Made by a program: the position numbers and the translations under genes. Source: Nonlabens xiamenensis (lineage in GTDB: Bacteria > Bacteroidota > Bacteroidia > Flavobacteriales > Flavobacteriaceae). From it: 64,000 nt of DNA. The notes beneath the pieces were generated by a model. The model saw nothing but the letters and a program-made list of their open reading frames with translations. It did not search any database and was not told the origin of the DNA. The stretch covers positions 806,001-870,000 of the forward strand of contig NZ_RMVE01000001.1 of NCBI RefSeq assembly GCF_003865345.1, in the 5' to 3' direction. This document shows positions 33,485-51,658 of this stretch, in pieces (the first letter of the stretch is position 1; every line of letters begins with the position of its first letter).

Positions 33485-33555
33485 ATCTGGAACTGTAGTT
33501 ACCACTGCGCTCTCTGGATAGCCGTGAATCTCTGGAGTTCGCTTTCGCGAAAGCG
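33485..33555 (+). repeat. Extended palindrome element, copy 1
   Basis: It ends in the 16-bp palindrome at 33540-33555 (core 33542-33553). The preceding bases TTACCACTGCGCTCTC, then CCGTGAATCTC and AGTTCGC, align with the in-gene copy (read on the minus strand) and with the copies at 37230 and 51571. Confidence 0.75.
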
Positions 33556-33721
33556 CCACACAAATAATGAATAGATTATATATAGGAGTACGGTCTATTT
33601 CGGGCTTTTTCTTTGAGGAGTTTTACTATCCACTAAAAAGCAGAAATCCTACAATTGATTCTTAAATTGCAATTTTGTGATCATTTTGAGATTAAATTCG
33701 CTTAAGTTCGTGACAGAATAA

Positions 33722-37229: not shown

Positions 37230-37318
37230 CCACCAGGCTGACATCGTTTGGTGTACTGGCTTTGTGGCTGCGCTCACCCGTTGCCTGTGAAGTTTTTAAA
37301 GTCGCTTTCGCGAAAGCG
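37230..37318 (+). repeat. Extended palindrome element, copy 2
   Basis: It lies in the 300-base gap between arsM and the second susC and ends in the exact 16-bp palindrome at 37303-37318. CTTTGTGGCTGCGCTCACCC followed by CTGTGAAG and TTAAAGTCGC aligns with the other copies, unit by unit. Nothing else is recognisable in the gap (37141-37440). Confidence 0.8.
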
Positions 37319-37440: not shown

Positions 37441-40400
37441 ATGAAAAAAATTATTCTTGTTTTGTTATTGCTGTGCAGTCTTGCTGGCATAGGGCAAACA
37501 ACTTTGACTGGCCGAGTCACTGATTCGGCTGGAGAGCCACTGGCCTTTGTCAGTGTTTTGGAACAAGGTACTGGCAATGGAACCACCACAGATACCAACG
37601 GAAATTTTGAACTCCAAGTCGACGGAGAAAGTGTATTGCTGTTTTCCTTTGTAGGCTACGAAACCCAGCGTCTGCTGTACGATGGCAGTGAATATCTCAA
37701 TGTGGTGCTGCAGGAAGGAGAAGCCCTAGATGAGGTGGTAGTCACTGCACTGGGAGTCAAACGTCGGGAGCGGGAATTGGGCTATGCGGTTCAAACCTTG
37801 GAAGAGGACCAGATTCAAGAGGTTAAAGCTGTGAATTTGATTGATAATCTGGCAGGTAAGATAGCTGGTGTTAGCGTGACCCAGGGGGCTACCGGTGTAG
37901 GTTCTAGTTCAAAAATAACCATTAGAGGAGAAGCCAGCTTTTCTAATAATAATCCGCTGTTTATCGTCGATGGTACACCGGTCAATAACAATTCGGTTTT
38001 TAATTTTACCAACGAGGCGGCTGCTGGTTTTCAGGAAATTGATTTTGGAAACGGTGCCTCCGAAATTAACCAAGATGATATCGCCAGCGTTTCTGTCTTA
38101 AAAGGTCCGGCCGCTGCCGCTCTTTATGGAACAAGGGCTTCAAATGGAGTTATTATAATAGAGACCAAAAATGGAAAATCGCAGCAGGGACTCGGTATCA
38201 GCTATAATACCAGTTTTTTTGTAGATACTGCTTTTCAACTACCACAATTTCAGAACGAATACGGACAGGGTAACAGCGGTGAGTTTGAGTTTGTAGATGG
38301 TCTCGGTGGAGGAATCAATGATAATATCACCTATTCCTGGGGACCCAGATTGGATCAGGGAATTTTGATTCCGCAATTTGACAGTCCGGTACTATTGCCG
38401 GATGGAAGCCAGGTTCGTGGAGGTGATACCTCATTGTACAATGGTCTGGACATTACACCCACAGCCTTTAGAAGCCATCCTGATAATTTGAAGAACTTCT
38501 ACGAGACAGGTTACACTGCTATCAACAATATAGCCGTGAGTAATGGTTTTGACCAAGGTAACTATCGACTCAGTTTTACTGATCTGCGTAGTGAAAGTAT
38601 TATTCCGGGTGTGGATCTGGACCGACAGACCGTCGCAGCCAAACTTCAATTCCAGCCTTTAACTTCTACTCAGATTAATGCTTCCATCAATTACGTGAAC
38701 AGTGAATCAGGCAACCGACCTTCCAATGGTTATGGTAGTGAAAACGTTAATTATTCTCTAGTGGCTTGGGGACCCAGATCGCTGGATATTGGTAATTTGA
38801 GGTCATACTGGCAACCTGGTTTGGAAGGGGTTCAACAGTATTCTTTTAATTACACCTTTTTTGACAATCCATATTTTATTCTATTGGAAAACCGGAATAG
38901 CTTTACCAGAGACCGTCTATTCGGAAATTTATCGCTGCAACAGGAGCTGACTCCTGATCTTAAATTGAGCATTCGTTCTGGAATGGATTACAGCAATGAA
39001 AAAAGAAGATTTCTAAGGAATTATTCTACCAATAGGTTCAGAAATGGCGCCTATGCAGAACATGATGTGTTTTATAGAGAGATCAATACAGATGTGTTGC
39101 TTACTTACCAAAAACAGTGGAGTAAATGGAGCCTAAATGCTAATGCTGGTGGAAATCGATTTTCCCAAAACGCATCCACGACACAGGTGCAGACCACTAG
39201 TCTGGCCCAACCTGGTATTTTCTCTATTAACAACGCTGCGAGTCCGCTGGAAAGTTTTGGCTTCAGGAGCAGAAAACGTATCAATAGTTTGTATGCGTTT
39301 GCCAAATTAGGGTATGAAGAAATGATCTACCTGGATGTGACCGCCAGGAACGATTGGTCCAGTGCATTAGCGACACCCTTTTCTGCAGACAATACGTCGT
39401 TCTTTTATCCATCCGTATCAGCCAGTCTGATCTTGAATAAATTGGTCAGCCTGCCAGAAGTAATAGATTTTGCCAAATTGCGCACGAGCTATGCTCAGGT
39501 AGGAAACGACACAGATCCTTATCAAACACAAGGAACTTTTATTGCTCAGACCACGGTAAACTCACAACCCACCTTTTCTAATCAGGATTTTATTCCCAAC
39601 CAAAACCTGCGTCCTGAGCGTACCTCAAGTACAGAGCTAGGTTTTGATTTACGCATGTTTAACCAGCGCTTGGGTATTGATTTTACCTATTACAATGCCT
39701 TGACCAAAGACCAGATCCTTTCATTACCTATAGGTATAGCTTCAGGTTATAGTCAGCAGGTCGTCAATGCCGGTGCCGTGCGTAATCAAGGAATGGAAGT
39801 CATTTTGAATGCAGTTCCTGTGCGCAGAGGTGATTTTGAATGGAATACTACCATCAATTTTGCCAGCAATCGGGCGGTGGTGGAAGATCTCCCGCAGGAA
39901 GAGGGCAGGCTCACCCTGGCTTATTCCAGAGTTTATGATAGCCAGGACCAAACTGTTTGGCATCAGGTAGAAGAAGGAGGAAGAATAGGCGACCTATATG
40001 GTACAGGGTACTTGCGCAATGAGGAGGGAGAATACGTGTTGACACCAGAAGGTAGATTCATTGCGGATCCCAATTTGAAAAAATTAGGGAATTACAATGC
40101 AGATTTCACCATGGGCTTCAACAATTCGTTTCGCTATAAAAATTGGGATGCTTCATTTTTGTTAGACTGGAGACAAGGTGGTATTCTGGTGTCCAGAACT
40201 TTAGCCCTGGCTGCTGTTGGCGGTCAACTGGAAGAAACGGCTTTTAGACCGGAAGAAGGGATTATTGCTGATGGAGTTATTAATACTGGTTCACCAGAAA
40301 ACCCTGTTTATGTCCAAAATACTGTTCCAGTGAGCGCTGAGAGCTACTACAGGCAGTTTTATGATAGAAACCATGAAGAGCACAATGTTTATGATGCCAG

Positions 40401-42173: not shown

Positions 42174-43529
42174 TTGACCGATATTTTTTCCATATCTGCG
42201 ATCCAGTGGTTCTTGGTGATCAGCACAAGTGTGGTGTTTTTCGCTCTGGCTCCTTATGCCAAGGATGCAGCCACGTTTTTTAAAGCTCAGCACAAAGGCA
42301 AACAACCCAATATGTGGATGCTTACCGGAAGCTTGATCATTTCCTGGATTTTTGCCAAAAGCATCACTAATGCTGCCAACCTTGGACTCGAATTTGGCTT
42401 GGTGGGAGGCGTGGCCTATGCCGGTTATTATTTATCCTTTGCCGTGGCAGGCATCCTTATCTATCAACTGCGCACAAAAGGTGGTTATACCAGTATCCAC
42501 CACTTTTTAACCCATCGTTATGGCAAACAAGCCATGATGCTGTTCTCAGTGTTAATAAGCCTGAGATTATTCAATGAAGTTTGGTCCAATACCATGGTGA
42601 TCGGTACTTATTTTGGAGATACGGGCAGTACGCCATACTATATAGCCATTATTTTGTTTACTTTACTTACACTGGCTTATACTTTAAAAGGTGGTCTAAG
42701 TAGTTCTATTTTTACCGATGTCATACAGATGTTGTTGTTTGCTGTGTTGTTGGTGGTCATCCTGAGCATTTTGTTTACGAATGAAACTGCACAGATCGAG
42801 CAAGTTTGGGATGCTGGTACTTGGTCGATGTCTACTGGACTCAATCTTTTCTTTGCCGCCCTTTTACAAAGCTTTAGCTATCCTTTTCACGATCCCGTAT
42901 TGACCGATAGAGGTTTTATAAGTTCGCCCAAAATCACAAGGAGCAGTTTCCTGTGGGCATCCTTTCTGGGAGCAATTTGTATCATCCTTTTCAGTTTGGT
43001 TGGAGTTTTTGCACAGCAGGCGGGTCTCGAAGGTCAGGCCGCTGTAGAGGTAGCCAAAAAACTAGGTGCGATATTGTTGCTGGTGATCAACTTTATTATG
43101 GTCACCAGTGCTGCCAGTACTTTGGATAGTACTTTTTCCAGTTTTTCCAAATTGATCAGTATTGATTTGGGATGGAACAAGTCGATCAGCTTTGGTCGGT
43201 GGATGATGGTGACTGTTGCTGTTATAGGTACTATCCCAGTATTTTTGGATGCAGAGATTCTGAGCGCCACTACGATTAGCGGTACGATGGTGATTGGCTT
43301 GACTCCAGTATTTCTGTTGTGGAAATGGAAAATGCCTCGCATCAGTTATTTCCTTTCGGTAGCTTGCGGATTATTATTTGGTTTGCTACTCGTTTTTGAG
43401 GTATTCCCAAAATCCTGGATCTTGACTGAAGGTTCTTACGCCAGCCTTTTGTGGATCAATATATACGGTCTTATGGCTAGTTTTCTGTTATTTTTGACGC
43501 CCTTATGGATAAGAAAATTCTCGATTTAG
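42174..43529 (+). CDS. Sodium:solute symporter (SSF family)
   Basis: This 451-residue inner-membrane protein has about 12-13 membrane segments and belongs to the sodium:solute symporter family. Marks are MWMLTGSLIISWIFAKSITN near residue 44, GYYLSFAVAGILIYQLRTKG near 83, HHFLTHRYGKQAMML near 105 and the SAASTLDSTFSSFSKL segment near 310 that holds conserved sodium-site serines/threonines. The start codon is TTG at 42174. No ATG in frame is nearby, and the protein begins correctly with a membrane helix. The metallophosphoesterase gene overlaps its end by 25 bases. The substrate is not known, and the neighbours suggest a compound that passes the SusCD-type pair. Confidence 0.9.
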   Translation: MTDIFSISAIQWFLVISTSVVFFALAPYAKDAATFFKAQHKGKQPNMWMLTGSLIISWIFAKSITNAANLGLEFGLVGGVAYAGYYLSFAVAGILIYQLRTKGGYTSIHHFLTHRYGKQAMMLFSVLISLRLFNEVWSNTMVIGTYFGDTGSTPYYIAIILFTLLTLAYTLKGGLSSSIFTDVIQMLLFAVLLVVILSILFTNETAQIEQVWDAGTWSMSTGLNLFFAALLQSFSYPFHDPVLTDRGFISSPKITRSSFLWASFLGAICIILFSLVGVFAQQAGLEGQAAVEVAKKLGAILLLVINFIMVTSAASTLDSTFSSFSKLISIDLGWNKSISFGRWMMVTVAVIGTIPVFLDAEILSATTISGTMVIGLTPVFLLWKWKMPRISYFLSVACGLLFGLLLVFEVFPKSWILTEGSYASLLWINIYGLMASFLLFLTPLWIRKFSI

Positions 43530-44431
43530 GGACAAAAAATGGCAAGATGCTCATTTTTGGAGGTGTGTACAGCAACCTTCAAGCACTGGATGCTGTGATG
43601 CAACTGGCCCAAGCGCAAGATATCGCTCCTCAAAATTGCATTTGTACCGGTGACATCATCGGTTATTGCGGTCAGCCTCGGGAGAGTTTAGAGCGTATGA
43701 TGCGCTGGGGTGCCTACAGTATTCTGGGCAATGTAGAAATACAGTTGCGGGATGATGAAGAGGATTGTGGCTGTGATTTCAGTGCTGGGTCTCGTTGTGA
43801 CGGATTCAGTGAGGTCTGGTACGCTTTCGCGAAAGCGACTTTAGGAGCTTCACGACCTTTGGGAGAGCAGAGCGGTAAAGCGACTTTAGGAGCTTCACGC
43901 CCAGCGCGAGAGGGTAAAGCTCAACAATATCTGGATACCCAGTATGAAGCCTATTTTCACCAATTACCCGATCATATTCAATTTACCTACGCTGGCAAAA
44001 GCATAGGCGTAGTCCATGGTTCTACAGAAAATGTTTCTGAATTTATATTTGCCTCCAGTTCCTGGGAAGCCAAGCAACCCAGTTTTGAGGCATTAGGAGT
44101 AGAAGTAATTCTGGCCGGACATTGCGGTTTGCCATTTGCAGATAAAAAAAATGGAATGTATTGGCTGAATCCTGGGGTGATTGGTATGCCAGCAAATGAC
44201 GGAAGCACACAGACCTGGGCGATGATTTTGGATGATGCCAATGGTTTTTCTTACGAATTTATCCGTGTTCCCTATGATTATTTGACCGCCATGGAACAGA
44301 TGAAAAAACATCATTTGCCCATGGAATATGCCAAAACACTAGAAACAGGTATTTGGGACAATATGGAAATTCTGCCTGATGAGGAAAGACAGCATTTTAC
44401 AGATTTGCATGCTGTAAAAGGCGAGAACTAA
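43505..44431 (+). CDS. Metallophosphoesterase-like protein with altered metal site and an in-frame repeat insertion
   Basis: This 308-residue protein has the calcineurin-like phosphoesterase layout: first motif FGGVYSNLQAL at 18-28, CTGDIIGY at 47-54, GNVE at 75-78, VVHGSTEN at 169-176, LAGHCGLPF near 207 and WLNPGVIGMP near 223. The first motif has G-x-Y in place of the metal-binding D-x-H, so the usual two-metal site is incomplete. A cysteine set CGC-x7-C (Cys88, Cys90, Cys98) follows the GN motif. Residues 107-138 are encoded by an inverted copy of the extended palindrome element and hold a 15-residue tandem duplication (KATLGASRP twice). The start overlaps the symporter by 25 bases; the Met at residue 15 (43547) is an alternative. 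A role in phosphorylated arsenosugar or nucleotide handling is inference. Confidence 0.86.
   Translation: MDKKILDLGTKNGKMLIFGGVYSNLQALDAVMQLAQAQDIAPQNCICTGDIIGYCGQPRESLERMMRWGAYSILGNVEIQLRDDEEDCGCDFSAGSRCDGFSEVWYAFAKATLGASRPLGEQSGKATLGASRPAREGKAQQYLDTQYEAYFHQLPDHIQFTYAGKSIGVVHGSTENVSEFIFASSSWEAKQPSFEALGVEVILAGHCGLPFADKKNGMYWLNPGVIGMPANDGSTQTWAMILDDANGFSYEFIRVPYDYLTAMEQMKKHHLPMEYAKTLETGIWDNMEILPDEERQHFTDLHAVKGEN
43822..43918 (-). repeat. Extended palindrome element inserted in a coding sequence
   Basis: The palindrome at 43822-43837 is followed by two direct copies of a 23-base block (AAAGCGACTTTAGGAGCTTC plus ACG, at 43832-43854 and 43877-43899), spaced 45 bases apart. Read on the minus strand it is GTCGTGAAGCTCCTAAAGTCGC before the palindrome, 3 mismatches in 35 bases against the intergenic copy at 51624-51658. 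The frame stays open. Confidence 0.85.
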
Positions 44432-44764: not shown

Positions 44765-45793
44765 ATGGCAATATTTGAACGTGATCCCTGGATTCTTGAT
44801 GTTTATCGCACCTATAGTGGTCCGCGTCATTTATACGTCCGCGGTCGTGCGTTAGAGGATCAACCCTTAAAACATTTTGAACAGCAAACGCTTTACCAAA
44901 CTTTACGCAACACCTGGCGCACCTTTGCTACGGATGAGATACGCAGTGCCTTGGTGGTGCTTACGTTGCCCAACGGTAAAAAATTTGAGACCAAAGCTGA
45001 CCACGAGGGTTATTTTCTATTTGACCTAAAAACAGATTTTGATCTATATGATTTGATCGATGACGAGGGCTATCTTTCTATTTCCGTAGCCTTTGATGAA
45101 GATAATGCCGCTTTCGCGAAAGCGAAACAACAAAAAAGGCTGAAGATCAATAAATTTCCGGGAGAAACCTTGATACCACCCATAGATGCGGGATTTGGCG
45201 TAATTAGCGATATTGATGACACCATCATGCATACCGGTGTGACCAGTTTTTTAAAACTGCGTGTGGCTTTCAATACCTTCTTTAAAAATTATGACCGCCG
45301 CCTGCCGCTCAAAGGAGCTGCCAGTTTTTACCAACTCCTACATCGTGGGGCTTCCTCAAAAGCACAGAATCCAATGTTCTATTTGAGCAATAGTCCCTGG
45401 AACCTGTATAAATATTTAGAAAAATTTCTCGATTTTCACGGTTTTCCCAAAGGCCCGATCTTGTTAAGGGACTTTCCAACTCCTTGGGACCGCACGCCCA
45501 AATTAAAGAGGCCACACAAGGAACACGAGTTGCTAAATATTCTAAAGCACTATCCGAATATGAAATTTATTCTGATAGGGGATTCGGGTGAGCACGACGC
45601 CGATTACTATATCAACGTGGCGCAACAGTATCCAGAGCGAATTTTGGCGATTTATCTGCGCAGCGTCAATCACCGCAGAAAGATGCTGCGGGTTCAATCC
45701 AAAGCAAATAATTTTGATATCTGCCCCATGCTACTGGTCAAAGAATCCAAGGAAGCTGTAGCCCATGCCAGGTCCATGGGATGGATTGTCTGA
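44765..45793 (+). CDS. App1-like phosphatidate phosphatase (DUF2183)
   Basis: This 342-residue protein has the HAD-like catalytic motif ISDIDDTIMHTG near residue 147-158 (D-x-D-x-T), then MFYLSNSPWNLYKYLEKFLDFHG, GPILLRDFPTPWD and FILIGDSGEHDADYY, as in the C-terminal domain of yeast App1 and its bacterial relatives. It probably removes phosphate from phosphatidate or a similar lipid. The N-terminal 140 residues (beta-sheet-rich, with GPRHLYVRGRALEDQPLKHF) are specific to this bacterial type. No signal peptide is visible. The palindrome repeat encodes NAAFAKAKQQKR at about residues 114-125, just before the catalytic domain. Confidence 0.9.
   Translation: MAIFERDPWILDVYRTYSGPRHLYVRGRALEDQPLKHFEQQTLYQTLRNTWRTFATDEIRSALVVLTLPNGKKFETKADHEGYFLFDLKTDFDLYDLIDDEGYLSISVAFDEDNAAFAKAKQQKRLKINKFPGETLIPPIDAGFGVISDIDDTIMHTGVTSFLKLRVAFNTFFKNYDRRLPLKGAASFYQLLHRGASSKAQNPMFYLSNSPWNLYKYLEKFLDFHGFPKGPILLRDFPTPWDRTPKLKRPHKEHELLNILKHYPNMKFILIGDSGEHDADYYINVAQQYPERILAIYLRSVNHRRKMLRVQSKANNFDICPMLLVKESKEAVAHARSMGWIV
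45109..45124. repeat. Palindrome copy inside the App1-like gene
   Basis: An exact 16-bp CGCTTTCGCGAAAGCG (core 45111-45122), read as A-F-A-K-A between the N-terminal and catalytic domains. Confidence 0.92.
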
Positions 45794-51455: not shown

Positions 51456-51570
51456 TAAAAGTAAATGCAATGAGTTGTAGATATCCCTTATCCTTCCGCA
51501 AATAGTTTTCTAGATGATCGCCGGCGATACGGAAAGACTTCCCCCTACAATTGGATTGAGTTGTTATTTC

Positions 51571-51658
51571 TCCCGTTGGTTGTGAATACCTCAGGTTCGT
51601 TGTGCCGCTGGGCTCTCCCGTTTGTCGTGATCCTCTTAAAGTCGCTTTCGCGAAAGCG
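51571..51658 (+). repeat. Extended palindrome element, copy 3 (two 45-nt units)
   Basis: Two related units start at 51571 and 51616 (TCCCGTTGGTTGTGA and TCCCGTTTGTCGTGA), exactly 45 bases apart, and the second ends in the exact 16-bp palindrome at 51643-51658. The same two-unit layout and 45-base period are seen in the in-gene copy at 43822-43918. It fills most of the 205-base gap after mfd and ends 3 bases from the stop codon of the next, minus-strand gene. Confidence 0.85.

Follow-up and report, generated by a model that had tools for sequence, protein, structure and literature searches.

Short repeated DNA appears to lengthen proteins in flavobacteria, in many unrelated genes. In the window analyzed here, a stretch of 64,000 nucleotides from the Nonlabens xiamenensis genome (the source genome), such DNA lies in frame within the gene for a calcineurin-like phosphoesterase. 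We consider it fairly probable that the repeat system has two layers, an iterated palindrome and a 45-base module inserted into palindromes.

The insert in the phosphoesterase gene

The features of the invaded gene, in window coordinates, were as follows.

43505 to 44431, plus strand: calcineurin-like phosphoesterase gene (Metallophos_2), invaded; open reading frame of 308 residues, Pfam PF12850, 21 homologues
43822 to 43837, no strand: 16-base palindrome CGCTTTCGCGAAAGCG; its 14-base core codes AFAKA and is ancestral here in the genus
43838 to 43882, plus strand: first inserted unit, 45 bases, TLGASRPLGEQSGKA; placed by sequence comparison, homologue alignment and profile
43883 to 43921, plus strand: second, partial unit, 39 bases, TLGASRPAREGKA; placed by sequence comparison and homologue alignment, ends approximate

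The product matched PF12850 with an E value of 7.3e-8 (33 bits; cut-off, 27) and was aligned with 21 homologues, namely 17 from genomes of the same genus, 2 from other genera, and those of Dokdonia sinensis and an uncultured Marixanthomonas. It carried 28 extra residues (112-139; TLGASRPLGEQSGKA TLGASRPAREGKA) encoded by the 84 bases of 43838-43921, which comprise the 45-base unit followed by a partial repeat of 39 bases. Because the alignment gap is 30 columns, the insert boundaries could shift by about 2 residues. The preliminary description had predicted that the insertion would be missing from most homologues, and all 21 (17 in the genus and 4 outside it) lacked the 28 residues; the flanks joined cleanly in these homologues, and in those from the genus the native protein ran from AFAKA straight on to N-L. 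Judged from this alignment, the insertion is genuine. It is not a chance match: allowing up to 3 mismatches, a 23-base motif matched 3 times, versus 0 in 100 shuffles, and the body-only profile described below matched this site with an E value of 3.8e-7.

Several further claims of the preliminary description held. The frame was maintained through the insert, so that the 308-residue gene stays open; KATLGASRP was indeed coded twice; and 43822-43920 was confirmed as a copy, in inverted orientation, of an element whose other window copies are intergenic (33499-33556, 37259-37318 and 51556-51658). The duplicated unit was not unique to the phosphoesterase, since 51556-51658 also consisted of two diverged units with a 45-base spacing.

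The predicted structure of the phosphoesterase, from a 3-row alignment, had a mean pLDDT of 50.5, with values of about 24 to 31 near the insert, and was uninformative on the loop. Phosphoesterases of this kind are expected to carry a DxH metal motif. Because GGVYSN stands at the position of that motif, both in the 43505-44431 product and in its homologues, the family may be catalytically unusual. A further palindrome coding AFAKA was located at window positions 45110-45123, within an APP1-like gene (44765-45793); it was present at the same residue in 4 of the relatives' orthologues that were read, 3 of them with the exact sequence and the other with a single mismatch.

Palindromes at sites without the insert

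The 14-base core GCTTTCGCGAAAGC was found at the corresponding codons, coding AFAKA, in the genus homologues of the phosphoesterase, exactly in 15 of 17 and with one mismatch in the other 2, all of them without the insert. Homologues from outside the genus had PYAQSK or PYAQKK at this site and aligned without a gap. Since the palindromes of the genus were insert-free and the outgroup was ungapped, the alignment indicates that the palindrome arose at this site without a change in length and that the module joined later, in one lineage. Arrival of palindrome and tail as one unit was ruled out by the same insert-free homologues. AFAKA, previously thought to have come with the insertion, was thus already in place, and the inserted residues had to be corrected from 107-138 to about 112-139.

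The gene for a CusA-type pump provided a second case. The searched part of this gene measured 873 bp in genome G017 versus 828 bp in four alleles that were 96-98% identical (G009, the source genome, G020 and G002). At the site, the palindrome was exact in G009, the source genome and G002 and had one mismatch in G020, and G017 had 45 additional bases inside the palindrome. Among 30 rows compared (29 of 30 loci, with L217 left out, plus L164), the insert occurred in 2, those of G017 and G233, the G233 allele being clearly diverged; further matches lacking loci were assessed from the match table. Insert-free rows from a further four genomes of the genus had the exact palindrome (G014, G010, G005 and G015), and five in the genus were without it (G019, G006, G022, G016 and G018). 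The palindrome-first order is thereby shown, at the level of sequence comparison, in two genes, the phosphoesterase and CusA, with net gains of 84 and 45 bases, respectively.

The 61-base element

In five other copies from the genus, the element was 61 or 62 bases long, with the form CGCTTTCGCGAAA(T/G)CGAGC...GCGGTAAAGCG, i.e., the palindrome opened by 45 bases. Model R1, built from the window units, matched five other members of the genus with E values of 1.7e-8 to 9.6e-12; these matches overturned the suggestion, from a simple tail pattern, that the element was confined to the source genome. Model R2 was built from nine copies and includes the palindrome, so its matches are biased towards palindromes. 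A body-only profile, from whose training both the palindrome and all window sequence were excluded, was scanned against 871 kb. It matched the phosphoesterase site with an E value of 3.8e-7 and recovered 3 of the 4 window sites, two of them with weak E values, missing the site at 37304; one match was without a palindrome (E = 0.6). The intergenic copies in the window were as follows.

33499 to 33556, minus strand: element copy with palindrome at 33540-33555; body-only profile E = 0.0035
37259 to 37318, minus strand: palindrome-containing element copy, located upstream of the gene at 37441; body-only profile, no match at E ≤ 1
51556 to 51658, minus strand: pair of diverged units with a single palindrome; body-only profile E = 0.017 and 0.027

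The consensus element ends in CGCTTT and AAAGCG, which are short inverted repeats. Neither GTAG nor CGTC was present at the consensus ends; GTAG occurred internally in some copies, e.g., L134. No consistent hairpin was seen in six copies, whose fold z-scores relative to shuffles were -0.03, -2.09, 0.00, -0.23, 0.56 and 0.07; in 5 of the 6, the single-strand fold did not outperform shuffled sequence. RNA structure was rejected as the conserved feature on such weak scores.

One gene that occurred in three genomes (L139, L157 and L158) had a weak R1 match in which the palindrome coded AFAKANF followed by FKEIHASA- or FKEVHASA-like residues; this is probably native sequence. In three arrays of genome G234 (L175, L187 and L189), about 21 additional bases of the CCTGCCTGCC type were present, and those in L175 and L187 kept the frame; the arrangement looks like the entry of one repeat into another.

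Insertions inside other genes

Element places were counted where R1 or R2 matched at E ≤ 1e-7; weaker matches were dropped, tandem arrays were entered without their second halves, and each place was entered once. A place was taken to be inside a gene when the element was spanned by an open frame of 140 codons or more that extended at least 20 codons beyond it in both directions. By this rule, 15 of 36 places were in open frames, representing 14 distinct genes (CusA twice). Frames with family matches above cut-off were the following.

CTP synthase (L184), 830.5 bits
TIGR01777 oxidoreductase (L176), 260 bits
TIGR04283 glycosyltransferase (L187), 237.6 bits
Glycosyltransferase 2 domain (L180)
Class-III aminotransferase (L167), element between two domains
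BatA N-terminus (L175)
Sortilin-Vps10 (L163)
DUF2147 (L179)
PagL (L200)
AcrB-type pump, CusA-type (L134, with a further copy at L164)

The L196 frame had a family match below cut-off only, and the L138 and L168 frames matched no Pfam family. The element was read in the AFAK frame at 9 of the 15 intragenic places, in the LSR frame at 5 and in the opposite orientation at 1. At L137, L165, L166 and L171, one and the same small gene terminated within the element; the remaining places had no spanning frame.

Distribution of the palindrome and the element

Each of the 23 genomes of the genus contained 288 to 857 copies of GCTTTCGCGAAAGC, and the reversed control sequence had 0 copies in each. In a draw of 397 Flavobacteriaceae genomes, 80 had at least one copy, and more than 19 copies were found only in the source genus, G234 (408 copies) and G250 (857 copies), the other sampled genera having 19 or fewer. 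In a 464-kb sample of the source genome, frames of 100 codons or more contained 60 of the 76 palindromes, and 32 of these were in the AFAK frame; coding shares obtained with this rule were 0.905 and 0.922. Four palindrome-poor genomes (G145, G259, G122 and G131) had small palindrome clusters with a 933-base spacing that recurred across four genera, and these clusters are probably a shared mobile island.

The 61-base element (palindrome plus 45 bases) was more restricted, with R2 matches in 12 of the 397 Flavobacteriaceae genomes and 11 of 237 genera. With 13 candidates scored per genome in this draw, and 150 for G234 and G250, the copy numbers are minimum values; at E ≤ 1e-3, R2 matched at least 21 times in G234 and at least 10 times in G250, tandem parts included. 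In a draw across the phylum, the element was present in 2 of 395 genomes, the source genome and G220, both Flavobacteriaceae. Searches of phages and plasmids by distant blastn, and of IMG/VR with one exact pattern, gave no match. Tandem growth was evident in the phosphoesterase, at 51556-51658 and in arrays of G220 and G234.

Proposed mechanism and alternatives

In the first layer of the proposed system, a highly iterated palindrome of 14 to 16 bases would enter genes without altering their length, and in the second, a 45-base module would join inside the palindrome, between CGCTTTCGCG and AAAGCG, to form the 61-base element. Insertion into a gene would add 15 residues and leave the protein still readable, since 45 is divisible by three and stops are largely absent from four of the six consensus frames. 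The module would then repeat in tandem, as in the phosphoesterase (45 + 39). Copying from palindrome to palindrome might proceed by template switching or gene conversion, with the palindrome providing homology and the module having no transposase of its own. Local copying fits the source genome, since 4 of its 5 element places lay within 18.2 kb (only 3 of 2,000,000 random draws were so clustered); purely local copying fits poorly with G234, since its copies were not clustered (P = 0.24). Partial matches with E values of 1.8e-4 to 8.8e-4, mostly of the palindrome alone, were left out of the source-genome places. Also counting against copying between palindromes are the palindrome bias of R2 and the outcome of the body-only profile, which recovered three of the four window sites and had one match (E = 0.6) away from any palindrome. 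We suggest only tentatively that the genome-wide palindrome may be a landing pad for the 45-base module, which would be copied without its own transposase, place 15-residue in-frame blocks across the proteome and later grow in tandem. If so, the iterated palindrome would amount to a distributed system of safe insertion sites within genes.

A non-autonomous mobile element of the MITE or REP type, about 61 bases long, could instead be moved by a transposase acting in trans with the palindrome as its target. The constant length, the short inverted repeats at the consensus ends, the occurrence of near-identical copies in different genes and across 11 genera, and the clear insertion into empty sites in the phosphoesterase and CusA would all agree with this. 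However, the 6-base inverted end repeats are themselves palindrome sequence, as is the sole duplication at the CusA junction (AAA or AAAgCG), and the consensus end has no GTAG or CGTC, although GTAG lies inside some copies; we regard such an element as rather unlikely.

It is more doubtful still that the inserted residues were retained as useful, for example as a linker or binding segment, with the repeat merely their source. The open frames and the lack of stops in the invaded genes would be expected if they were, but unrelated proteins use different frames and both orientations (9 AFAK, 5 LSR and 1 reverse among 15), and the element is rarer in genes than the coding share would give (15 of 36 versus about 0.9, the latter from the source-genome sample). 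Least credible of all is that the 28 residues belonged to the family from early on and were lost in the relatives, or that they are an assembly artefact. The analysis covered a single genome of the species, which would leave room for this; however, none of the 21 homologues in and outside the genus had the residues, and an independent gene in another genome (CusA in G017) had gained exactly 45 bases. The two-layer system of palindrome and module is our preferred reading.

Comparison with known systems

Repeats that invade proteins have mainly been described in Rickettsia and Wolbachia, obligately intracellular bacteria in which reduced selection offers an easy explanation. The flavobacterial insertions are in ordinary genes, including that of CTP synthase, of bacteria with genomes of 3 to 4 Mb, and close CusA alleles (96-98% identical) exist with and without the insert. 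Because ordinary genes are invaded and such allele pairs are available, both the movement of the repeat and the tolerance or use of the added block by the protein become testable. In the titles and abstract openings of the open-licence literature, no description of an in-frame palindrome or repeat insertion in Flavobacteria was found.

The excerpts of PMC10969869 and PMC3767692 describe Rickettsia palindromic elements (RPE) and those of Wolbachia (WPE) as short repeats lying in frame, in several frames, in many unrelated protein genes and also between genes, and an excerpt of PMC3767692 gives RPE lengths of 100 to 150 bp. The preliminary description had likened the insert to the protein-invading elements of Rickettsia, and the likeness stood as regards in-frame placement in unrelated genes (15 of 36 places, 14 genes) together with intergenic copies. 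It failed as regards length, hairpin and origin: unlike RPE, the flavobacterial element has 61 or 62 bases, of which 45 are net gain at a pre-existing palindrome, forms no consistent hairpin and is hosted by Flavobacteriaceae; the comparison was with published descriptions of RPE. With a pre-existing palindrome, a much shorter length and folds that did not beat shuffled sequence in five of the six copies, the element works like RPE but is at most a putative member.

GTAG- and CGTC-tagged REP elements are described in the excerpts of PMC3733652 as small palindrome-based repeats, some of them intragenic, with CGTC repeats reported from Bacteroidetes. The flavobacterial element is likewise a small palindrome-based repeat with some copies in genes, but its consensus ends are CGCTTT and AAAGCG, with no GTAG or CGTC. 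HIP1 of cyanobacteria, in the excerpts of PMC4390886, is a short palindrome with hundreds of copies in coding and noncoding DNA; the text of that paper had no match for "Bacteroid" or "Flavobacter". Like HIP1, the palindrome core has a copy number beyond chance (288 to 857 in all 23 genomes of the genus, versus 0 for the reversed control). Unlike HIP1 (GCGATCGC), the flavobacterial palindrome has another sequence and, in addition, hosts a secondary module.
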